Shown piece after piece: positions 422-16,812 of a stretch of 16,812 bases of DNA; position 1 is the stretch's first letter; every line of letters starts with the position of its first letter. The notes beneath the pieces are model-generated. The model saw only the letters and a program-made list of their open reading frames with translations. It was not told the origin of the DNA and did no database searches. Source of the stretch: Burkholderiaceae bacterium (GTDB taxonomy: Bacteria > Pseudomonadota > Gammaproteobacteria > Burkholderiales > Burkholderiaceae_C). The translations under genes were made by a program, and so were the position numbers. The stretch spans positions 1-16,812 of the forward strand of contig JAOTTZ010000006.1 in NCBI GenBank assembly GCA_029864165.1, given 5' to 3'.

Positions 422-1954
422 ATGGTCAGCGCCGTGCAGAAACGCGGATGTTCGTCACACCCATACAGTTCTATTTCTGCCTTGATCGCTCCCCTTGTCA
501 TCGCGCTAGCGCTGCTTGCGTTTGCTGCCCTGGCCAACGCTGACAAAACCACAGCGGAGACTGACACAACGGCACCGGCCACAACGGCATCGGCCGACAG
601 CGAGTTGCGTCAACGGCTGACCCAACGTGAAGATCAGCGGCGAACCAGCGACCCTTGGCACACTGATATTTTTGGCCGAACGCTGACCGTTTCGGGCGAG
701 GTGGCCCTCGACCATGAACGAATGTCGCCACGTCTTTCCGAGCCCATCGACGATGGACGCAGTCGTCTGTCGACGCTGAGCCTAGAAGCAGAAGCGTTTT
801 ACAGCGTCACCGATAGGTGGTCGCTCTTTGTGCAAGGGCGCTTGGGCGCCGACAAAGCGCTACGCGAGGGGGACGAGCGTTTAGGCTGGACTCGGTATGT
901 GGAACGTGGAGAAATGTGGTTGCACGGTCGGAGCGTAGGCGGTAGCGGGCTGGACTTTGAGCTGGGCCGCCTCAACTTCGAAGACGAACGCCGGTGGTGG
1001 CTGGACGAAGAGCTCGACGCACTGCGCGTGTCGGGCGGGAGTGACAAGTTCGAGTTCTCGCTTGCTGCGGCACGCGAATTGGGCCGCAGCCGAAGCGACC
1101 AAGACGGTATCGATCCGGAGCAGCAAGACGTTATCCGTTGGATCGCAAACGCGGGGTGGGAATGGCGGCCGAACCATTCGGTCAACTTGTTCATGCTGCG
1201 CCATCGCGACCGCTCAACGACCGAATCTGTTGGGCAGGTGGTACGGGCCGCGGTGCATGACGACTCGGACGCCCGGTTGACCTGGGTCGGCGCCAGTTTG
1301 GAAGGCGAGGCCAACCTGCGGCCCAAAGAAAGTCTCCACCACTGGCTTGACGTCGCACGCGTTTGCGGCGACGAGGCGATGGTCGAGTTTGGCACGCATT
1401 CTCCCGACGAGGTCACGAACGTGTTGCGGCGCAAAATTCGCGGCTGGGCGGCCGACGCCGGCCTGCGCTGGCAGTTACCGCTACCGGGTCAACCACGTCT
1501 ATCGCTCGCGTACGCCATAACCTCCAGCGGTACCACAAGTGACACCGACCGCGCGTATCGGCAAACTGGCTTGCACAGCAACCTGCACGAATTTGGCGCA
1601 GCGAAAGAATTTGCACGCTACGGTTCTACGCTGGCCCTGGAATTGTCCAATCTGCGCGTGACAACGCTAGGCGTGGGACTGACGATACTCAAGGCCAGTT
1701 CGGTCGACCTCGTTTATCACCGCTACCGACAAGCCGAACCTGCCACCGAGATGCGTGCGGCGCGCTTTGCCAGCGAACTGACAGGCTTGGCCACAGACAT
1801 CGGCAGTGGGCTGGATTTGGTGCTGACGTTTCTAGAATCTGAGCGCGTGGAGTTGAACGCGACTGTTTCCACGTTTCGCGCTGGGGAGGCGTTTGGTGCA
1901 CTGGCGGGTCGAAGGTACCGCTACGGCGCTGTGTCGATCCGTGTTGGCTTTTGA
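422..1954 (+). CDS. Alginate export (AlgE-like) family outer-membrane beta-barrel protein
   Basis: Encodes 510 aa. The N-terminus has a long hydrophobic stretch (about residues 23-40, ending ALANA) that looks like a Sec signal peptide. The mature part has the alternating polar/aromatic pattern of a beta-barrel and ends in phenylalanine, the usual BAM-recognised outer-membrane terminus. Segments such as FELGRLNFEDERRWW, YRQTGLHSNLHEFG and LELSNLRV followed by SSVDLVYHRYRQ match the alginate_exp family, whose model AlgE exports polyanionic polysaccharide. The start ATG 422 has an AGGA at 411-414. The substrate cannot be read from sequence: no alginate polymerase genes are in the window, and many family members act as general porins or export other polysaccharides. 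The family call is firm; the function is inferred. Confidence 0.85.
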   Translation: MVSAVQKRGCSSHPYSSISALIAPLVIALALLAFAALANADKTTAETDTTAPATTASADSELRQRLTQREDQRRTSDPWHTDIFGRTLTVSGEVALDHERMSPRLSEPIDDGRSRLSTLSLEAEAFYSVTDRWSLFVQGRLGADKALREGDERLGWTRYVERGEMWLHGRSVGGSGLDFELGRLNFEDERRWWLDEELDALRVSGGSDKFEFSLAAARELGRSRSDQDGIDPEQQDVIRWIANAGWEWRPNHSVNLFMLRHRDRSTTESVGQVVRAAVHDDSDARLTWVGASLEGEANLRPKESLHHWLDVARVCGDEAMVEFGTHSPDEVTNVLRRKIRGWAADAGLRWQLPLPGQPRLSLAYAITSSGTTSDTDRAYRQTGLHSNLHEFGAAKEFARYGSTLALELSNLRVTTLGVGLTILKASSVDLVYHRYRQAEPATEMRAARFASELTGLATDIGSGLDLVLTFLESERVELNATVSTFRAGEAFGALAGRRYRYGAVSIRVGF

Positions 1955-2225
1955 TCTTCAACGCCGCTTGCGTCGACGAAGGTCGCGCGAACCGTGAATC
2001 CACGGGACGCGTCGGGTGAGCGCTGGCCTTTCAGCAGGTCAATTCGCGCGCCATGCCGTTGTGCGATCTGCGATCCGATCGTCTTTGACGATCGCCACCC
2101 GCAGACGAGGCCGCACCCGCGAGTTCGTCCGCGCTGCCAACGCAAAAAAGTTGGTCAAACGCACTTTCCCTATCCGCACACAGACGCCGCGGCCGGAATC
2201 GACCCCGGGGGTTGTCACGCAACGA
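1955..2225 (-). pseudogene. Decayed 3' remnant of a sensor histidine kinase gene
   Basis: No intact gene lies between 1955 and 2401. The minus strand here carries the broken C-terminal end of a histidine kinase related to the intact one at 3359-4753. In order, in different frames, are a G1-like DSGRGV (about 2200-2183), ESAFDQLF (about 2165-2145; intact copy ERVFDRF), VAIVK (intact copy LAIVK), and SQIAQRHGARIDLL (intact copy KEIAQRHGARIELV) followed by a matching tail to near 1955. The G1-to-F-box spacing is 41 nt against 42 in the intact gene, so at least one base is lost; a second frame change lies after VAIVK. The part coding for the N-terminus, H-box and any response regulator is absent. 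The frame runs a little into the 3' end of the AlgE-like gene before a stop at 1921-1923. Confidence 0.75.
2062..2081. repeat. Short tandem repeat inside the kinase remnant
   Basis: TGCGATC occurs twice in tandem (2062-2068, 2069-2075), followed by a partial CGATC. The matching place in the intact kinase gene (about 3490-3500) has a single copy. Local duplication here adds bases between the G2-box part and the IAQRHG part and accounts for one of the frame changes. Confidence 0.7.
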
Positions 2226-2363
2226 CTGCATTGCACGGCTGATCCTTTACGGATTTATTTTTCTTCGGACCAGCGCATCAGATGATGGTTGTTCCCAAGG
2301 CATGTGTAACCGATTGTTGGTTGCTGCGGGCGGCGAGGGTGTGGACGAGTAGACTGAAAATCT

Positions 2364-2369
2364 TATAAG
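2364..2369 (+). promoter_or_regulatory. Possible -10 element upstream of the spondin gene
   Basis: TATAAG (5 of 6 matches to the sigma-70 -10) lies inside the 8-bp palindrome CTTATAAG at 2362-2369, about 33 bases before the preferred ATG at 2402. No convincing -35 is seen at normal spacing. The rest of 2226-2361 shows no gene or clear signal. Confidence 0.3.
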
Positions 2370-2401
2370 CAATGCCAGGTCGGCAGAAAGAGGAGAAGCG
2401 T

Positions 2402-3052
2402 ATGGAGCGCATGAATCATCAAGATGCGTGGGATCAGTCGTCGCGGTGGGTTTCCATGTTCAGAAAGCACAAAGCGATCTTGGTCACATGTGGTGCTTTC
2501 CTAGGTTTTGGGATGGGTCTATCGTCAGCTCAGGCGCAGACAGCCCAACACCGGGTGGATTTTGACGTCACTTGGAGTAGCACCACGCATCCCGGTGCAA
2601 TTCATCCACTTTCGCATTTCGACTCGGTGACCGGAGCGACTCATTCCGATGCCGTCAGCTTTTGGCGGGTCGGCGAGCTCGCCACCCCGGGTGTGAAGCA
2701 AGAAGCCGAGGAAGGCGTTTCGCCTCTTTTCGACGATGAGCTCAACGCGGCACTGACGGCAGGTACGGCGCATGGCCTCATTAACGAGCCCGGATGGATA
2801 TGCCCTGGTGAGGTATCTCATGCGAATTGTCGCGCACCGAATTTCACGTTCGAGGCCAGTGAGTCGCATTCGAAGGTGACCTTTCTGGCGATGATCGGCC
2901 CCAGCCCAGATTGGTTCGTGGGCGTCTCTGAGGTGGCGCTGCGTGATAACGGTGCCTGGGTAACAACGCCGATAGTGTTGCCCATTCTTCCCTACGACGG
3001 CGGCACACGGAGCAACGACGCTACGTTTCGTTTGGCCAGTTCGGACCTTTGA
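2402..3052 (+). CDS. Spondin-domain surface protein, frameshifted before its PEP-CTERM anchor
   Basis: The ATG at 2402 is preferred because AGGAG at 2391-2395 sits six bases before it; an in-frame ATG at 2372 has no such site. A hydrophobic segment (FLGFGMGLSSAQAQ, about residues 33-46) ends a signal peptide. The mature region matches Spondin_N: it starts HRVDFDVTW and contains the core MIGPSPDWFVGVSEVAL and then YDGGTRSNDATF. Spondin_N is a beta-sandwich domain often found in exported bacterial proteins, some of them PEP-CTERM substrates. The frame then gives RLASSDL and stops at 3050-3052, without an anchor. The other frame continues with FGQFGPLNNPPEAISLI and a clean PEP-CTERM tail to 3219. 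A single indel between about 3025 and 3050 is the simplest explanation, so the gene is a recent pseudogene, a secreted truncated product or a sequencing error. Confidence 0.8.
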   Translation: MERMNHQDAWDQSSRWVSMFRKHKAILVTCGAFLGFGMGLSSAQAQTAQHRVDFDVTWSSTTHPGAIHPLSHFDSVTGATHSDAVSFWRVGELATPGVKQEAEEGVSPLFDDELNAALTAGTAHGLINEPGWICPGEVSHANCRAPNFTFEASESHSKVTFLAMIGPSPDWFVGVSEVALRDNGAWVTTPIVLPILPYDGGTRSNDATFRLASSDL

Positions 3053-3219
3053 ACAACCCGCCTGAAGCGATCAGCCTGATCACCGACACGAGCGGACAGT
3101 TCATGGGCGGTGCTTCGCTGGGAACGATGACCATCACCCTGATTCCGGAACCGGCAACCGCTGTCTTGTTGGGGCTGGGGCTTGGTGGCTTGGCGCTGGT
3201 TCGCCGAAGGAGTCGCTGA
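3026..3219 (+). pseudogene. Out-of-frame PEP-CTERM sorting tail of the spondin gene
   Basis: In the frame shifted by -1 relative to the upstream gene, the sequence reads through to TGA 3217-3219. It holds IPEPATA, then a hydrophobic stretch LLGLGLGGLAL, then the basic end VRRRSR. This is the complete tripartite PEP-CTERM signal recognised by exosortases. It has no start or ribosome site of its own and can only be the lost C-terminus of the spondin-domain gene. The frame is open from about 2950, so the indel lies in the overlap; domain continuity places it near 3025-3050. No X XXY YYZ slippery heptamer is visible there. Confidence 0.8.
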
Positions 3220-3250
3220 GGCCAGCCCCACCGTCTTTAAAGTAGTCAAG

Positions 3251-3275
3251 GCGCCGGGTGTGAACCACCCGGCGC
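3251..3275. terminator. Strong hairpin after the spondin/PEP-CTERM gene
   Basis: Perfect 10-bp arms GCGCCGGGTG and CACCCGGCGC with a 5-base loop, 31 bases after the PEP-CTERM tail stop. No clear T-run follows on either strand, so it is terminator-like rather than a textbook intrinsic terminator. It lies between two convergent genes. Confidence 0.5.
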
Positions 3276-3315
3276 AATTAGAAGAAAAGTACCCAGGGTC
3301 AGTTTGAACATTGCG

Positions 3316-3349
3316 ACATGTCACCCGTCCCCCGGGGGCGGTGACGTGT
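3316..3349. terminator. Second hairpin, just downstream of the histidine kinase gene
   Basis: Outer arms ACATGTCACC (3316-3325) and GGTGACGTGT (3340-3349) pair with one wobble. Inside them CCCCC faces GGGGG. It lies ten bases past the kinase stop on the minus strand and may end the regulator/kinase transcript. There is no strong U-tract. Confidence 0.4.
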
Positions 3350-3358
3350 GACTTCGCT

Positions 3359-4753
3359 TCATTGGGGGGTGGGGGGGTCTTCGTACTCGGCTCCACGTGT
3401 GTCATCGAAAACGACGCGAACCCTCAGCCCATGCGTCCCGTCGGATGACGGCAAACCGTCGACCAGTTCAATGCGCGCGCCGTGTCGCTGCGCGATCTCT
3501 TTGACGATGGCCAACCCGAGCCCGGTGCCGGTCGTCGTCGCATCGTCCCCATGTACCGTCGTGCCGCGGTAAAAGCGGTCGAAAACACGTTCTTGTTCCT
3601 CCAATGCGATACCGGGCCCGGTATCAGCAACCTCTAGCAGCACACCAGGTGGCGCAGCGCGCAATGCGACGTCAACTTTGCCACCACGAGGTGTGTAGCG
3701 CAAAGCGTTGTCGACCAGGTTGTTGAGCAGGATACGCAGATGATGCACATCTCCACGTACTACCGTGGATTGGTACGCCGCCGTTTCAATCTCTGCGCCC
3801 AAATCGATGCCGCGCGCGTTCGCAAACACCCCCATATCAGTCACTACCGACTTCACGAGCGCCGCCAGGTCGACGTCGCTTGCTGTGTGTTCGCTGGTGT
3901 CTGGTTCCAGGCGCGATAGCTGCAGAAGTTGTTCGATCAAATGCGTTGCGCGATCGAGCCCACGTCGAATGTCGCCCAGCGTTTCTTTGCGTGTCGCCTC
4001 ATCAGAGGCCGTTGCCAACCCCTGAACCTGCAGCCGCAACGCGGTCAGCGGCGTGCGCAAGGCATGGGCCGCGTCGGCGGTGAAGCGGCGTTGCACGAGC
4101 AGCGCCTTGGCAAGGCGCGTCATCAGCGCGTTGACCGACGTCACCAGGGGTTGTAGCTCGGTCGGAAGCGAGGCGGTTGCGATGGGTGTCAGCGACGATG
4201 CACTGCGGTGACCGATATCGGCGGTGGTTTGCGTTAACGGCTTCAGGCCTTGCCGCAGCGCGTATGCCAGCATCAGCGCGGTCAATACCAAAACGACAAC
4301 CAAATTCGGCAACAGGACTTCCACCGCGGTGTCGACCGCCAGGTCTTCACGCACCGACATCAGCTGTGCCGCCTGGATCAGATGCGTCGGCGATCGTTCT
4401 GCGTAAACCCGCCATGCGCCTTGCGGCGTTGTAAGCGTCTGGTAGCCTTCTCCATCGGCCCAAGGTATGTCGGCGGTAGGAAACGATAGGAACACTTGGC
4501 GTTTGTCCAAACTCCAAATTTGAGTGACCAATCCGCTGTCGTCCAAGTCTGGCGTCGTCTGATGGTTCGGCGGCGGCACACCTTGCCCGCGGTAGTGCGT
4601 TCGCACCGAGAGCGCATGCTGTTTGAGCTGCTCGTCGAACACTTCGTTGATTTCCTGACGCGTGAACCAGAATGTTGAAGCGCCGAGCAATACCCCGCCG
4701 ACAGCCAAAGCCATCGACAAACGAACCATGAGATGCCATTGAATTGAGCCCAC
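3359..4753 (-). CDS. Sensor histidine kinase, QseC/PmrB-like
   Basis: Encodes 464 aa with two membrane segments (about residues 9-30 and 145-167) flanking a periplasmic sensor region of roughly 115 residues. After them come a linker, the dimerisation helix with phospho-acceptor His230 (FTADAAHALRTPL), the N-box (LLNNLVDNALRYTP, 342-355), G1 (DTGPGI, from 377), the F-box (VFDRFYR) and G2 (GTGLGLAIVK). It should autophosphorylate and pass phosphate to the adjacent regulator. The start is a GTG directly after the regulator's TGA, with GGAG six bases upstream; an ATG eight codons in is the alternative. The last codons form a C-rich run (C7, A, C6) coding PPTP, unusual and possibly slippage-prone. 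The signal sensed is unknown. Confidence 0.93.
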   Translation of the reverse strand: MGSIQWHLMVRLSMALAVGGVLLGASTFWFTRQEINEVFDEQLKQHALSVRTHYRGQGVPPPNHQTTPDLDDSGLVTQIWSLDKRQVFLSFPTADIPWADGEGYQTLTTPQGAWRVYAERSPTHLIQAAQLMSVREDLAVDTAVEVLLPNLVVVLVLTALMLAYALRQGLKPLTQTTADIGHRSASSLTPIATASLPTELQPLVTSVNALMTRLAKALLVQRRFTADAAHALRTPLTALRLQVQGLATASDEATRKETLGDIRRGLDRATHLIEQLLQLSRLEPDTSEHTASDVDLAALVKSVVTDMGVFANARGIDLGAEIETAAYQSTVVRGDVHHLRILLNNLVDNALRYTPRGGKVDVALRAAPPGVLLEVADTGPGIALEEQERVFDRFYRGTTVHGDDATTTGTGLGLAIVKEIAQRHGARIELVDGLPSSDGTHGLRVRVVFDDTRGAEYEDPPTPQ

Positions 4754-5413
4754 TCAAAGCTCCACGACGCAGTAGCCCACGCCACGAACATTTTTGATTC
4801 GATCTGCGCCGAGTTTCTTCCTCAAGTGGTGCAGATGCACCTCGATGGCGTTGCTGCCCACCTCCGACGACCATCCGTAGACCGAGTCTTCCAAAGCCTC
4901 CCGCGACAAGACCGCGCCGGGTCTTTGCATCAACATTTCAAGCAAGCTGAACTCGCGCGCCGACAGTTCTAACGGTTGACCGTCGAGCTCAGCGGTGCGC
5001 GCAATAGGATCGACGCGCAGGTCCCCGCATTCGAGTAGCGATGTCGCGCCGCCCGCGTGTCGGCGTATCAGCGCGCGCACACGGGCAATCAGTTCTTCCA
5101 GGTCGTAGGGTTTGATGAGATAGTCATCGGCCCCGGCGTTCAGGCCGCCCACCCGGTCAGCAACGGCGTCACGCGCAGTTGCTATCAGCACAGGCACGGG
5201 GTTGTGCCGCGCCCTCGCGGCCGACAGCACGCTCAAGCCGTCTTGGCGCGGTAATCCGAGGTCGAGAATCACAGCCTGGTACACATCGTTGGCGATTGAA
5301 AGCTCGGCTGCACGGCCGTCGGTCACCCAATCGACGCTAAAGCCTGCGCGCGTCAAGCCCTGCTGCACAGCCTTGCCAATCATCGGGTCATCTTCTACCA
5401 AAAGTAATCGCAT
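4754..5413 (-). CDS. OmpR/PhoB-family response regulator, QseB/PmrA-like
   Basis: Encodes 219 aa. The receiver domain starts MRLLLVEDD, with acidic residues for Mg binding, phospho-acceptor Asp51 (ILDLGLPRQDG) and conserved Lys101 (DDYLIKPYD). The C-terminal winged helix runs from about residue 125 and contains LSAREFSLLEML and the recognition region SNAIEVHLHHLRKKLG, ending RGVGYCVVEL. The frame is open to 5503, but the receiver begins exactly at the ATG at 5411-5413, so that start is chosen. It is directly adjacent to the kinase gene, indicating one operon and a cognate pair. It faces the PEP-CTERM gene at 5668 across a 254-bp divergent region that carries a PmrA-type box, so autoregulation and control of the surface protein are likely, though inferred. 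Confidence 0.93.
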   Translation of the reverse strand: MRLLLVEDDPMIGKAVQQGLTRAGFSVDWVTDGRAAELSIANDVYQAVILDLGLPRQDGLSVLSAARARHNPVPVLIATARDAVADRVGGLNAGADDYLIKPYDLEELIARVRALIRRHAGGATSLLECGDLRVDPIARTAELDGQPLELSAREFSLLEMLMQRPGAVLSREALEDSVYGWSSEVGSNAIEVHLHHLRKKLGADRIKNVRGVGYCVVEL

Positions 5414-5477
5414 CGCGTACCCGTTGTAGCGGCCTGAGTCGCAAAGGAAAGATGCCGTTGTTGTTGCGAGCCGGTGT

Positions 5478-5487
5478 GTACCGGTAC
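5478..5487. repeat. 10-bp palindrome in the regulator leader
   Basis: GTACCGGTAC is a perfect palindrome. CCGGT also recurs ten bases apart (5471-5475 and 5481-5485). It sits downstream of the presumed regulator promoter on the minus strand. A protein-binding role is possible but unproven. Confidence 0.3.
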
Positions 5488-5502
5488 TACGCGTTGTAAG
5501 CA

Positions 5503-5508
5503 ATCGTA
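5503..5508 (-). promoter_or_regulatory. Possible -10 of the regulator promoter
   Basis: On the minus strand TACGAT (4 of 6 to TATAAT) lies ten bases downstream of the PmrA-type box. It would place transcription start about 85 bases before the regulator ATG. A normal -35 is replaced by the activator box, as expected for an activated promoter. Confidence 0.35.
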
Positions 5509-5552: not shown

Positions 5553-5654
5553 CGCCCCGTGGTTGCGCTCTGACCCACGCGCGGCGACTGCGAGAAGCGA
5601 GTTCCATCGCTCGGCGCAACGTAATTTGTGGGCCTATCAAATCATCTGTTTCTA

Positions 5655-5660
5655 CAGGAG
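5655..5660 (+). promoter_or_regulatory. Ribosome binding site that fixes the PEP-CTERM gene start
   Basis: CAGGAG ends seven bases before ATG 5668, which is followed at once by a typical signal peptide. This rules out the longer in-frame start at 5563. Confidence 0.75.
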
Positions 5661-5667
5661 TTTTAGC

Positions 5668-6480
5668 ATGAAGAAAATTGCAGTTGCGTCACTTTTACCG
5701 CTGGCCTTGGCCTGCGGCAATGCCAGCGCGGTACTGAGCCTGCCAGATTTCAACGCGGCGACCTTTACCCCTGGCACACCCATCACTAATCCGTATTACA
5801 ACCAATTTGACGGTACGCGCGTCTACACTTCCACCGACGTAAACGGCGACCCTGCCGACGAAAGGTTCGAGTTTCAGTGGCTCGGCGCGGGCAAGACGCT
5901 GTTGGGCGTCCAGACATGGGCGCTACGCGACCGCGCGTTTGAGGGTGGTTTCTTGGTCGAAGACACCTTTGACTACTTTGCGCAGGACATCGCCGGTAAC
6001 CTCTGGTACTTCGGTGAGGACGTCACCAACTACGAGTACGATGCCAACGGCGACCTGATCGGCACCAACGACCATAGCAGCTGGCTCGCCGGCTTCAACG
6101 GCGCGGTCCCGGGCTACCAAATGCCGGCTGTCCCCACCGTCGGTCAAAACTACTTCCAAGAATTTGCCATCGCCGACAACGCGGCTGACACGGGTGAAAT
6201 CACAGCCACCGGGCTGACGCGTACATTTGCGGGCACGACCTACACCGACGTCGTACAGGTGTTTGAGACCAGCCCGGTCGATCCCGGCGTGTTGCCGGGG
6301 TACAAGTACTTTGCGCCGGGCATCGGTCTGATCGGGGCTGAAGAGCATCTTGATGCGAATCTGCTAAACCCCGAGTTGACCTTTGCGCTGGCGCCTGTCC
6401 CTGAGCCCACGTCAGCAGCTTTGCTGGCTTTGGGCTTGTCGCTGGTAAGTGCGGCGGCGTATGCCCGACGCAAGACGTAA
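5668..6480 (+). CDS. PEP-CTERM sorting domain surface protein, function unknown
   Basis: Encodes 270 aa. A short signal peptide (MKKIAVASLLPLALACGNASA) is predicted to be cut near residue 21. The mature part is acidic and rich in aromatic residues and Gly/Asn/Asp. Segments such as NLWYFGEDVTNYEYD, SSWLAGFNGAVPGYQMPA and VGQNYFQEF recall a family of secreted proteins of unknown function; no catalytic motif is visible. The C-terminus is a complete exosortase signal: VPEPTSA (PEP codons 6400-6408), a hydrophobic helix LLALGLSLVSAAAYA, and the basic end RRKT. After export it should be cut by an exosortase such as XrtA and attached to the cell surface or matrix. It faces the response-regulator gene across a shared regulatory region, the best clue to its control. 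Confidence 0.9.
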   Translation: MKKIAVASLLPLALACGNASAVLSLPDFNAATFTPGTPITNPYYNQFDGTRVYTSTDVNGDPADERFEFQWLGAGKTLLGVQTWALRDRAFEGGFLVEDTFDYFAQDIAGNLWYFGEDVTNYEYDANGDLIGTNDHSSWLAGFNGAVPGYQMPAVPTVGQNYFQEFAIADNAADTGEITATGLTRTFAGTTYTDVVQVFETSPVDPGVLPGYKYFAPGIGLIGAEEHLDANLLNPELTFALAPVPEPTSAALLALGLSLVSAAAYARRKT

Positions 6481-6555: not shown

Positions 6556-7884
6556 TTACGGATTGCTGCGCGGCGCTTTGGCTAGGGACAAATCGGGCGT
6601 GTTAACGCCAACGAGTATGCCTTCGATACGTGCTGCAATTTTATCGGCAGCACCCCTGTGCTGAGCAGCAAAGGCCAGGCACTTGGCCACCTGCTCGGCC
6701 TGGGCTGGCGATGAGAGCATTGCGCATGCGGTAGCGACAGCTTGCTGCATCGTCTGCACGCGCTGCGCTGCGCCCGCGACGAGCGACAGCTCTGCCGCGG
6801 CTGAAAAATTGAACGTATTGGGCCCCATCAGCAGCGGGCAGCCACAGGCCGCAGCCTCGATCAGGTTTTGGCCACCGAGCGGGGCGAAGCTGCCGCCCAA
6901 CAGCGCCACCTGCGCCAGCGCGTAGTACAGCGGCATCTCGCCCATCGAGTCGCCGAGCCAAACCTGCGCCTGCCAGGCTTCTTGCGGTGGCTGCGCGCCC
7001 CAACGGCTGCGGCGGGCTAGGCTGATTCCGGCCGATTGCACCAAAGCAGCGACTTCGTCGAAGCGCTGTGGATGGCGCGGAACGATCAGCAACAGCGGGC
7101 GAGGCCCGGCTTGTTTCTTCCAAGCAGCGAGTAGCTCCGCTTCCTCGCCCTCGCGGGTGCTGGTGGCCAGCACGACCGGCCGGGCGACGGCATTGCGCCA
7201 CTGCCGGCCTTGCGCCAGCAAAGCGGCGTCGGGCGTGATGTCGAACTTCAAATTGCCGCACACCTCGACCCGCTGGGCGCCAGAGTCGCGCAGCCGACGC
7301 GCGTCGCCTTCGGTCTGCGCCAACACTAAGGCCAGGCTTTCAATGGCTGGTCGCAGCAATGCATCGAGCCGGCGACCGAGCTTGCGGCTGTGATCACTCA
7401 GGCGTGCATTGGCCAACACCATGGGGACTTTCGCGGTGCGCGCTGCGAGCAGCAGGTTGGGCCAAGTTTCAGTCTCTATCAGCACACCCACAGCAGGTCG
7501 AAACTGACGCAGGAAGCGCTGTACCGAGCCCGGCGCGTCGTAGGGCAACCAGACTTGCCGGTCGCCAGCTTGCAAGAGACTGCGGCCGGCGTGGCGTCCC
7601 GTTGCCGTGCTGTGCGTCAGCAGGAGCTTGGCATCTGGCAAACGAGAGCGCAACGCCCGCACCAGGGCCGCGGCGGCCAGCGTTTCGCCGAGCGAGACGG
7701 CATGCACCCAGACCCAATCTTTCGACGGTTCGCTGTTATAGATGCCCAACCGCTCGCCGAGCGTGTGCCGATAAAGCGGCTCGGCGTGACCGCGCCACCA
7801 TAAGCGCAACAGGTACACGGGCATCAACAACCGCAGCAGCGCCGAATACAGCGCAAGAGCCAGACACGTTGGCCAACGTCTCAT
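6556..7884 (-). CDS. waaA: 3-deoxy-D-manno-octulosonic acid (Kdo) transferase
   Basis: Encodes 442 aa; the E. coli enzyme is about 425. It transfers Kdo from CMP-Kdo to the lipid A precursor at the inner membrane, the first step of LPS core assembly. An N-terminal hydrophobic helix (about residues 6-28) anchors it. HAVSLGETLA carries the conserved catalytic glutamate (about Glu67). IETETWPNLL, the KFD segment in GNLKFD and the C-terminal LLGGSFAPLGGQNLIEAAACGCPLLMGP are typical family motifs of the GT-B fold. The ATG at 7882-7884 is chosen because it overlaps the waaC stop (ATGA) and begins the membrane helix; the frame is open upstream to 8007. One or two Kdo residues may be added; this cannot be told from sequence. 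Confidence 0.93.
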   Translation of the reverse strand: MRRWPTCLALALYSALLRLLMPVYLLRLWWRGHAEPLYRHTLGERLGIYNSEPSKDWVWVHAVSLGETLAAAALVRALRSRLPDAKLLLTHSTATGRHAGRSLLQAGDRQVWLPYDAPGSVQRFLRQFRPAVGVLIETETWPNLLLAARTAKVPMVLANARLSDHSRKLGRRLDALLRPAIESLALVLAQTEGDARRLRDSGAQRVEVCGNLKFDITPDAALLAQGRQWRNAVARPVVLATSTREGEEAELLAAWKKQAGPRPLLLIVPRHPQRFDEVAALVQSAGISLARRSRWGAQPPQEAWQAQVWLGDSMGEMPLYYALAQVALLGGSFAPLGGQNLIEAAACGCPLLMGPNTFNFSAAAELSLVAGAAQRVQTMQQAVATACAMLSSPAQAEQVAKCLAFAAQHRGAADKIAARIEGILVGVNTPDLSLAKAPRSNP

Positions 7885-8864
7885 GAAAAGCCCCGGCCTT
7901 TGACCGAGCACCACGCCGACCATACTTCTTGCAGCGCGGGCGACGGTTGGCCCAGCACAGAAACTTGATGCAAGTGGCCGTGCGCCTTCTGTGGGCCTGT
8001 GCGCCACGCGGTAGGAAAGTTGTAGAGCTGCACGTGCGGCAGGCCTAGCGCAACGGCGATATGGCTCAGGCCACTATCGACGCCAATCACGCCTTGGCTG
8101 GCTGCCATGCGGTCCACCACCGCGTCTATGCTCATTTCCGGCCATACCTCCGCCTGCGGCCCGAGCGCCGACGCAAGACGTTGTGCACGCTCGCGCTCGC
8201 CAGCATCGCCCTGGGGTAGGCCAATTCGCATGCCGTCGGCGGTCAAGCGCTGGCCGAGCGCGATCCAACGCTCTAGCGGCCACAGTTTGTCGTCGCGCGA
8301 ACTGCCGTGCACGAAGACCACGCTGGGTGAGTTGCGGGCAGGTGGCGTGGCTCTCAGGCCGTAGCGCGGTGGACCTTCGGGGTTGTAGCCCAGCGCGCGT
8401 CCTGCCAGAACACGCGAGCGGTCCATCGCGTGGGTACGCGGTGCTATGTGTATGGGGCGGTCGACCAAGCAACGCGCCGCGAATTCCCAACTTGAACCCT
8501 CGGTTCGGTTGGCGATACCGTAGCGGTGGCCGTTTGTCGACAATCTAACCACACGGCCGACCAGCGCTGACTTGGTAAGGCCTTGCAAGTCCAGCGTGGC
8601 GTCGTAGCGTTGCCGGGTCAACCGCGCTCGCAGCGCCTTGAATTCCCGACGTGTCGTTTGACTCCACCACGCTGCGGCCCATCGACGCAGCGGCAGCTCG
8701 ATAACGTCTCCGATGCCTTCGACGCGGCGCACCAGCGACGCATAGCTGGGCTCGACGACCCAGTCGATTCGAGCGTGCGCAATGGCTGTGCGTATGTCCT
8801 GCACCGCTGGCATCGAGTGCACCACATCACCCAGCGACGACAATTTGATGATCAGTACCTGCAT
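7881..8864 (-). CDS. waaC: LPS heptosyltransferase I
   Basis: Encodes 327 aa, a normal length for family GT9. It adds the first L-glycero-D-manno-heptose to Kdo2-lipid A on the cytoplasmic face of the inner membrane. The N-terminus VLIIKLSSLGDVVHSMPAV is the family signature, including the loop near the acceptor site. Later come LDLQGLTKSALV, VVFVHGSSRDDKLWP (nucleotide-sugar region) and GVDSGLSHIAVALGLPHVQLY, the C-terminal signature. The stop overlaps the waaA start by four bases, so the two are translationally coupled. It lies 31 bases downstream of the phosphomannomutase gene, fitting an operon of sugar-phosphate and core genes. Confidence 0.93.
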   Translation of the reverse strand: MQVLIIKLSSLGDVVHSMPAVQDIRTAIAHARIDWVVEPSYASLVRRVEGIGDVIELPLRRWAAAWWSQTTRREFKALRARLTRQRYDATLDLQGLTKSALVGRVVRLSTNGHRYGIANRTEGSSWEFAARCLVDRPIHIAPRTHAMDRSRVLAGRALGYNPEGPPRYGLRATPPARNSPSVVFVHGSSRDDKLWPLERWIALGQRLTADGMRIGLPQGDAGERERAQRLASALGPQAEVWPEMSIDAVVDRMAASQGVIGVDSGLSHIAVALGLPHVQLYNFPTAWRTGPQKAHGHLHQVSVLGQPSPALQEVWSAWCSVKGRGFS

Positions 8865-15328: not shown

Positions 15329-16375
15329 CTAACCAAGGTTTCGCACAATATGCGGCCCCAACCAGTTTGCCACACCGATTGGCAAACGTCGCCAAGTTTC
15401 AATCAATAACCTGTACTTTGCGTTGGCGGGGTTGTTTTGCGGAATGGCGTCGCGTTTGTATAGACAGTACTCGTAATACAAAGGCCGGGGTTCAAACCCC
15501 CAATTCTTCTTGAAGGAGTAAGACCCTGTGCCTTGTTTGCTTCGTCCATAGTCGAAGAGCTTGACGCCGCGGTTGCAGGCGCGGCGCATCAGCTCCCAGT
15601 ACTTGAAGTCGTTGGCAGCCAAGTCCCGGGCAGCCTCGTCGTCACCGGCGTAGTAGGGCAAGACTTCGTCCCGAAAGTAGAAACTCAGCACGCTGCTGAG
15701 CGGACGGTGGTCGGGGGCTGTGACAGTCAAAACCTCGCAATCGGTACCGAACTCTTGCAAGAGCGCCTCAAAGTAGCGCTTTGGCATTGCCGGAGTACCA
15801 TGACGGTGCACGTTGCTCGCGTACAAAGCAAAGAACCGATCTACATCGCTGTCAGTATGGCTGAGCAGGCCGTTCTTGGCGCCCTTGCGCACCATCGCGC
15901 GCTGTTTGCGCGGAATGGCCAGCATGTTGGCCTCTTCTTCGGGCGCGATCTCCTTGCGGAACGTCACGTACAGGCCTTGCGCGGGCCAGTCAGCATGGCG
16001 TTGAGTCGTATTGCGTAACTCTAAGTGCGCCACGCCTAGCCGCTGCGCCAACTGCTGCGCTTCTTGCTCCAGCGCTTGCGTAGCCTGTGGGTTAACCGCG
16101 GCGACGCCGCCATAGACGGCAAACGGAAGGCTTACCAGCGAACTGCCAAACAGCAGGCTCTTTACGTGCGCAAGCGGTAGTACACCGTCGATACGACCGC
16201 CGGCTTGTGAGGACTGCGCATACAGATAGTACGTTTCGTGTCGAAACACCTCACGCAGTATCTTTTGCCAGCCGGAGCGGTGGAAAAAGGTCGCCTCAGG
16301 GCAAGTCGAGACAAACTCGTCCCACAAAGCTGTCGCGGACACCTCACCGGGCAACAAGCGTTTGACGACAGGCAT
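15329..16375 (-). CDS. FemAB-like protein, XrtA/PEP-CTERM system-associated
   Basis: Encodes 348 aa from the ATG at 16373-16375; a GTG at 16405 in frame would overlap the upstream gene. It is a GNAT-like acyltransferase of the FemAB type. Characteristic segments are FFHRSGWQKIL near the N-terminus, AIPRKQRAMVRKGAKNGL in the middle, and LFDYGRSKQGTGSYSFKKNWGFEPRPLYYEY near the C-terminus. These match the subgroup found with exosortase A and exopolysaccharide genes. FemAB proteins add amino acids to cell-wall precursors in Gram-positives; the role in PEP-CTERM systems is not established, with modification of polysaccharide or lipid carrier as one idea. It starts ten bases after the deacetylase gene, so they form one operon. 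Confidence 0.88.
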   Translation of the reverse strand: MPVVKRLLPGEVSATALWDEFVSTCPEATFFHRSGWQKILREVFRHETYYLYAQSSQAGGRIDGVLPLAHVKSLLFGSSLVSLPFAVYGGVAAVNPQATQALEQEAQQLAQRLGVAHLELRNTTQRHADWPAQGLYVTFRKEIAPEEEANMLAIPRKQRAMVRKGAKNGLLSHTDSDVDRFFALYASNVHRHGTPAMPKRYFEALLQEFGTDCEVLTVTAPDHRPLSSVLSFYFRDEVLPYYAGDDEAARDLAANDFKYWELMRRACNRGVKLFDYGRSKQGTGSYSFKKNWGFEPRPLYYEYCLYKRDAIPQNNPANAKYRLLIETWRRLPIGVANWLGPHIVRNLG

Positions 16376-16385
16376 GAGCGAAGAG

Positions 16386-16812
16386 CTATCGGTCTTGCAA
16401 CGCACCAGCTTGGCCAGCCCGCTTTAGAAAAATATCGTCCATACGCCCCCACTTGAAGTCGCTCAAAAGACGTTCTAAGCGAGGCTCCATCCGGTGGATA
16501 TTCACGTAGTGACGAAAGCGCGTTTTGCGGCTGATGCCGGCAATGCGCGGCTGCCCGACGTCGATTTCCCATGGGTGGAAGTAGAAGATACCCGGCTCAC
16601 CGTCACCGGCATTCACACGCCTGAGCATCCAACGAGAAAAGGCGTACGGTAAAAGCCTGAAGTACCCGCCACCACTGGACGGCAGATTTCGATTGAACAC
16701 GCGCAGCGTCGTGGCAGGTATCTCGATCAACCCATCGCGCACGCCGTGAGCGAAGCGAGGCGCATTCGGCATGCCATAGTGGTCGTGTCGAATAGGGTAG
16801 ATGCTCGAACTG
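16386..16812 (-). CDS. Polysaccharide deacetylase, PEP-CTERM locus subfamily (C-terminal part)
   Basis: Only the last 141 residues are present; the frame is open to the window edge. The visible part includes SSSIYPIRHDHYGMP, a signature of the deacetylase subgroup found in XrtA loci, and then a DUF3473-type C-terminus: FNRNLPSSGGGYFRLLPYAF, GIFYFHPWEIDVGQPR and FRHYVNIHRMEPRLERLLSDF. The catalytic NodB-like motifs should lie upstream of the window. It likely removes acetyl groups from an exopolysaccharide in the periplasm. The adjoining FemAB-like gene supports the presence of an exosortase A locus beyond the right edge. Confidence 0.88.
   Translation of the reverse strand, partial: SSSIYPIRHDHYGMPNAPRFAHGVRDGLIEIPATTLRVFNRNLPSSGGGYFRLLPYAFSRWMLRRVNAGDGEPGIFYFHPWEIDVGQPRIAGISRKTRFRHYVNIHRMEPRLERLLSDFKWGRMDDIFLKRAGQAGALQDR

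Follow-up and report, generated by a model that had tools for sequence, protein, structure and literature searches.

The window, by which we mean the whole analysed stretch of DNA (contig C40, 16,812 bases), belongs to a genome that is 87.8% complete at 2.65 Mb and fragmented into 560 contigs. An AlgE-like outer-membrane porin gene (Alginate_exp; PF13372, 96.2 bits against a cut-off of 25.2) occupies 422..1954 on the plus strand and converges with what is left of a sensor histidine kinase gene on the minus strand (1921..2243), its decayed 3' end, which runs from just before the G1 box to a stop across at least three frames; 34 nt form the end of both frames. To the right of this fragment lies a plus-strand gene for a Spondin_N protein with a PEP-CTERM motif (2402..3219; PF06468, 96 bits; PEP-CTERM model match at 3142-3210), followed by an intact sensor histidine kinase gene, the second copy of the same subfamily, with HisKA and HATPase_c domains (3359..4753, minus strand). 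An intact OmpR-type response regulator (4754..5503, minus strand; PF00072 and PF00486; likely start, read from the sequence, at 5413) and a second PEP-CTERM protein gene (5563..6480, plus strand; PF07589, 20.9 bits; likely start at 5668) come next, and a FemAB-family protein of the XrtA/PEP-CTERM system is encoded at 15329-16405 (TIGR03019, 521 bits). No exosortase match (PF09721) was found in this 87.8% complete genome, with a Pfam model that may be insensitive. Scans of 1900-3400 for promoters and terminators returned nothing above shuffles.

Pfam scans of three single-frame open reading frames across the fragment yielded no match, after which we wrote a frameshift-tolerant local aligner for it. 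The intact kinase (3359-4753, minus strand) aligned to the minus strand of 2420-1900 with a score of 119, against a mean of 34.8 (sd 4.4) and a maximum of 58 in 500 dinucleotide-preserving shuffles of the region; the highest chance score seen with this aligner was 78, reached once, when the same kinase was set against a shuffled 681-base stretch of contig C416. The best alignment pairs window positions 2248-1945 with kinase residues 356-460 (37 of 100 residues identical), and when both strands were scanned in 600-base tiles the fragment was the top-scoring place in the window outside the kinase gene, with 7801-8400 on the minus strand as runner-up at 72. The homology of the fragment to the catalytic ATPase domain (HATPase_c) is thus beyond chance. 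An earlier note on this DNA had read a sensor-kinase remnant on the minus strand and proposed frameshift-tolerant alignment as its check; the alignment, lying far above shuffles, bears that reading out.

The kinase pieces were found across three frames at the places given earlier. A G1-box-like DSGRGV (2183..2200, minus strand) aligns to DTGPGI/DSGPGI; an F-box-like FDQLF follows in a second frame (2145..2159, minus strand); and a G2-box-like LRVAIVK lies at about 2104-2084 on the minus strand, its VAIVK segment (2082..2100) repeating 3498-3516 of the intact kinase gene at 89%. A single-frame tail in a third frame completes the fragment (1921..2070, minus strand; QIAQRHGARIDLLKGQRSPDASRGFTVRATFVDASGVEDQKPTRIDTAP followed by a stop; QIAQRHGARIDLL...TRIDTAP-stop). 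The homology had been placed at 1955..2225, and while the homology holds, its left limit does not: the last frame passes 1955 into the porin gene and stops at 1921 with QKPTRIDTAP-stop, 34 nt inside that gene.

The relationship is also visible in DNA. Over its first 31 codons the tail has 63 of 93 bases in common with the intact kinase gene, and the differences fall 8, 7 and 15 times at codon positions 1, 2 and 3; such an excess at third positions is what coding constraint would leave if it acted on one branch or both during part of their history. Repeats pair 2036-2052 with 3465-3481 and 2082-2100 with 3498-3516. Apart from the query itself, a DNA search of the same genome with 1900-3340 returned a match in the kinase gene, at 66% over 3415-3516 (E 0.003), and two short ones on C450 and C225, at which a kinase protein search found nothing.

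Upstream of the G1-like piece the signal ends. With a lenient frameshift penalty the alignment could be extended to 2296-2402, an extension that we dropped, as 2249-2420 scored no better than shuffles. To the left of the Spondin gene, no trace of kinase residues 1-355 was found in 2249-2420 on the minus strand, which is at shuffle level, or in the tile scan. A functional kinase would have an open frame, a HisKA phospho-acceptor and N, G1, F and G2 boxes, a set that the fragment does not possess; because the sensor, the membrane part, the HisKA histidine domain and the N box are gone and the frame is broken, it yields no working kinase. Minus-strand positions 2243-1921 are the final quarter of a sensor-kinase gene with its frame broken, a pseudogene produced by ordinary gene decay. 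The genome is fragmented into 560 contigs and the frame of the Spondin gene differs from that of a near-identical database protein, and one might therefore ask whether the frame breaks are assembly errors in a living gene. We give this virtually no credence: three quarters of the gene are gone, beyond the reach of any frame error, and 2249-2420 carries no kinase signal above shuffles. The missing domains refute it.

To place the fragment among kinases, we scored 166 sequences against it: 120 listed homologues (of at least 5893 found among 7994 candidates), 45 open frames from fetched loci, and the window kinase. Among the 45 frames, four duplicate the window kinase, and some other places also occur twice. 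Six database kinases scored highest (P0002 151, P0004 139, P0001 126, P0003 123, P0009 122 and P0005 121), followed by the window kinase and its copies at 119. The top 17 of the 166 rows all belong to the subfamily of the adjacent kinase, the lowest being P0015 at 103; a kinase from the same genus (L006) reached 102, and the best other kinase of the same genome only 52 among the 22 of 27 other HATPase_c places scored (those on C83, C360, C477, C543 and C504 were left out). Identity to the adjacent kinase is 62-71% across P0002-P0016, and the fragment's best matches lie inside P0001-P0016. These scores put the fragment in the adjacent kinase's subfamily, of which the adjacent kinase is not demonstrably the member closest to it. 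The suggestion that the intact neighbour is the closest match survives in part: it is the only kinase gene of its own genome matched by DNA, but six database kinases outscore it.

These scores bear on how two kinases came to lie side by side. One reading is that the fragment is the native orthologue and that the intact kinase was imported or stems from an older duplication (an outparalogue). P0002 and P0004 both outscore the neighbour against the fragment, and among discriminating columns the fragment sides with P0002 against the neighbour at 17 and the reverse way at 2, although the row had been fitted to P0002, 7 of the 17 columns lie in the tail constrained by the porin overlap, and several others carry the commonest letter of the other rows. 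A tree of 29 rows, with porin-overlap columns removed, placed the fragment best inside a 12-row set (98/99) that contains neither the adjacent kinase nor P0002; the fragment's branch is 1.13 long and its placement insecure. The approximately unbiased (AU) test rejected neither sister relation (p-AU 0.122 for fragment plus neighbour, 0.406 for fragment plus P0002). Against this reading stands a linker of about six extra codons before the tail that is common to the fragment and the intact kinase and absent from P0002, P0004, P0010 and P0013; in register, 18 of 33 bases are equal (shuffle p 0.0012), against 12 in the next best register. As the linker is common to both, it favours duplication in this lineage, and we hold a native orthologue beside an imported or outparalogous kinase to be possible, if rather unlikely.

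The most informative part of the fragment is its end. Its tail, QKPTRIDTAP, resembles those of P0002 (QKTTRIATAP) and P0004 (QNETRMASAP), and we asked whether any DNA could encode the tails of a kinase and a porin on opposite strands with an overlap of 18-65 nt. Five of 8160 pairs fit (120 listed kinases by 68 listed porins), involving four kinases and five porins, and all five did so at 34 nt: P0002/P0163, P0004/P0166, P0010/P0164, P0010/P0167 and P0013/P0170. Shuffled kinase tails gave 48 fits in 89 full sets, all at 18-23 nt and none at 26 nt or more, and 115 fits in 1264 smaller sets, none at 30 nt or more. The window fragment fits its own porin at 34 nt and no other listed porin. The tail of the intact window kinase fits none of the 68 porins. 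Nor, among P0002-P0018, do those of 13 of these 17 further members of the subfamily (P0003, P0005-P0009, P0011, P0012 and P0014-P0018). The last residues of the intact kinase (3359-3380) differ at a run of G from those of the near-identical P0001, and its stop is uncertain.

Independently of the tails, the longest contig listed is 33989 bases for both P0004 and P0166, and 8904 for P0013 as well as P0170. From the protein tails and these shared values we infer that the porin and kinase genes are neighbours, tail to tail, in the relatives; the pairing would hold for only four of the 17 subfamily proteins P0002-P0018. A convergent pair with a 34-nt overlap is accordingly seen in DNA in the window and, for the four relatives, in protein tails only. 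Because the relatives' kinase tails fit porins antisense at this same length, the ancestral neighbour of the kinase was probably an AlgE-like porin and not a PEP-CTERM gene, and the fragment probably lies at the ancestral site. Since its last 34 nt double as the living end of the porin gene, they have persisted, and what remains of the fragment is held partly by the porin's coding constraint over those 34 shared bases.

Searches of related genomes (own genome excluded throughout) found no porin-kinase locus for comparison in the genus, family, order or class. The porin occurs in none of 4 genus genomes and in 2 of 199 family genomes. With at most four candidates scored per genome, the kinase passed a threshold of E 1e-98 in 2 of 398 order genomes, with 51% identity at most, and P0004 as query passed one of E 1e-95 in 4 of 368 class genomes, with 48% at most. 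We also examined kinase loci of relatives (among them the best 80 of at least 587 confirmed, with kinases at most 45% identical), and no porin and no Spondin gene was seen near the kinase in 105 loci, whose kinases are at most 51% identical and many of which are only about 4 kb long.

The earlier note had explained the arrangement by duplication of a whole module of regulator, kinase and PEP-CTERM gene, with subsequent loss of the left regulator and kinase. The geometry invites this: both kinase 3' ends point the same way, and to the right of each lies a PEP-CTERM gene on the plus strand. A comparison of the two PEP-CTERM proteins, however, gave nothing significant (best blastp E 1.5); the left one belongs to Spondin_N and the other has matches to the sorting motif only, in two libraries. 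Since the genome has 32 PEP-CTERM motif matches, 31 of them over the cut-off, two such genes in one window are unremarkable in themselves. Loose PEP-CTERM-like ends appeared in 10 of 101 related kinase loci (9 of 80 and 1 of 21; kinases 33-51% identical) in a scan that recovers the window's own two genes, 21 of the 101 loci being only about 4 kb long; among the ten we judged only that of L135, about 4 kb from the kinase, to be credible, and the others to be mostly chance frames. Likewise, no regulator signal was found left of the Spondin gene in 2249-2420, in the tile scan or at 1-421, where the best score was 42 (shuffle mean 31.6, maximum 46). The kinase tail, moreover, indicates the porin as former neighbour. 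With neither homologous PEP-CTERM genes nor regulator traces in both halves, we regard a module copy as very improbable; what stays plausible of the proposal is a duplication followed by loss of the left kinase, given two kinase 3' ends of which the left is dead.

A regulator remnant does exist elsewhere in the genome. Contig C416 carries a second copy of the AlgE-like porin gene (L056, 1-1106; 93% DNA identity over window 449-1560), cut by the contig end before its tail. Upstream of this copy, 45 bases from the start of the porin similarity and pointing away from the porin, lies the decayed C-terminal end of a regulator (L056, 1151-1276; KVLSRETLEDSIYRW ... VGNNAVE, with RGIGYRVVE slightly further). 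It scored 70, against a mean of 33.2 and a maximum of 49 in 200 shuffles, and tblastn with the window regulator, in a search of three loci, gave 41% over 51 columns (E 7e-4); of 110 regulator frames, two tied as best at 70, namely that of the window and a frame of a different genome (L139). This scar may be a piece of the same old porin/kinase/regulator neighbourhood, or may come from a second strain in the assembly.

The Spondin gene has a history of its own. Its frame is broken near 3030, with the PEP-CTERM tail in another frame, and the near-identical database protein P0121 (270 aa) is intact; the break reflects variation between strains, recent loss of the gene's function or faulty assembly. 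A search of the 199 other family genomes recovered no such protein, and P0122 as query recovered a Spondin gene, 34-38% identical, in 4 of the 368 other genomes of the class. In the database, the six closest relatives share 52-64% identity with it, and among 41 relatives one (P0139, 42%) is a protein of a Phycisphaerales MAG; the gene was possibly imported from outside. On either side of the gene stands one copy of a 17-nt direct repeat (2203-2219 and 3330-3346, 82%), which may be chance or the trace of a rearrangement; short two-copy repeats are often chance, as the repeat tool itself warns.

A rearrangement that brought in the Spondin gene could itself have duplicated about 300 bp of kinase 3' end, in which case the intact gene went on working and the fragment was never a whole gene. 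The absence of any trace of residues 1-355 or of a regulator on the left side would then be expected, as would the stop of the homology near the Spondin upstream region, and the direct repeat around the gene, perhaps itself chance, would find a place. A full duplication followed by full loss predicts the same picture, however, and we think a copy of the 3' end alone possible without being the likelier account.

Our preferred reading, which we consider quite probable, is that the fragment is the last quarter of an OmpR-type sensor-kinase gene, now a pseudogene, left where the ancestral kinase gene and an AlgE-like porin gene overlapped tail to tail by 34 nt. In the ancestral state the two genes would have stood in this arrangement; kinase and regulator would then have come to be present in two copies, most likely because this lineage duplicated them. 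The kinase on the right would have stayed alive together with its regulator and with a different C-terminal tail, and the left kinase copy would have lost its first three quarters, in whose place the Spondin_N PEP-CTERM gene now lies. We infer the order of these steps and the agent of the rearrangement, as well as duplication in place of import.

More tentatively, and with a probability that we set low, porin and kinase may have been an old functional pair, locked by the conserved 34-nt antisense overlap and dismantled in this genome at two places, with a kinase remnant at one porin copy and a regulator remnant at the other, the surviving regulator/kinase pair having moved beside genes for PEP-CTERM surface proteins with a possible change of targets. 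If the porin-kinase pairing is true, an AlgE-like exporter is a candidate regulatory target of an uncharacterised two-component system. More generally, the locus corrects the story of a duplicated module and illustrates how the place that a dead gene had in the ancestor can stay legible in its overlap with a living neighbour.

The intact neighbour and P0002 resemble kinases of the QseC/PmrB type from OmpR-family two-component systems, with HisKA and HATPase_c domains. The best NCBIfam model for the intact neighbour is QseC, at 236.9 bits against a curated equivalog cut-off of 475, so it is not QseC itself; of such a kinase, the fragment has kept no more than its tail and pieces resembling the G1, F and G2 boxes. 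Prokaryotic genes can overlap tail to tail over a few tens of nucleotides. Overlapping genes in prokaryotes are described as common and mostly short; what sets the window apart is that the same 34-nt overlap fits several relatives and would mark the fragment's old position. For myxobacterial two-component genes, one study (PMC4603909) names large indels as the most common change and describes lineage-specific gene loss, with some pseudogenes arising from smaller indels or frameshifts, the latter in about 1% or less of clusters. The fragment in the window is unlike these known two-component pseudogenes in that the porin gene on the opposite strand preserves its dead tail.
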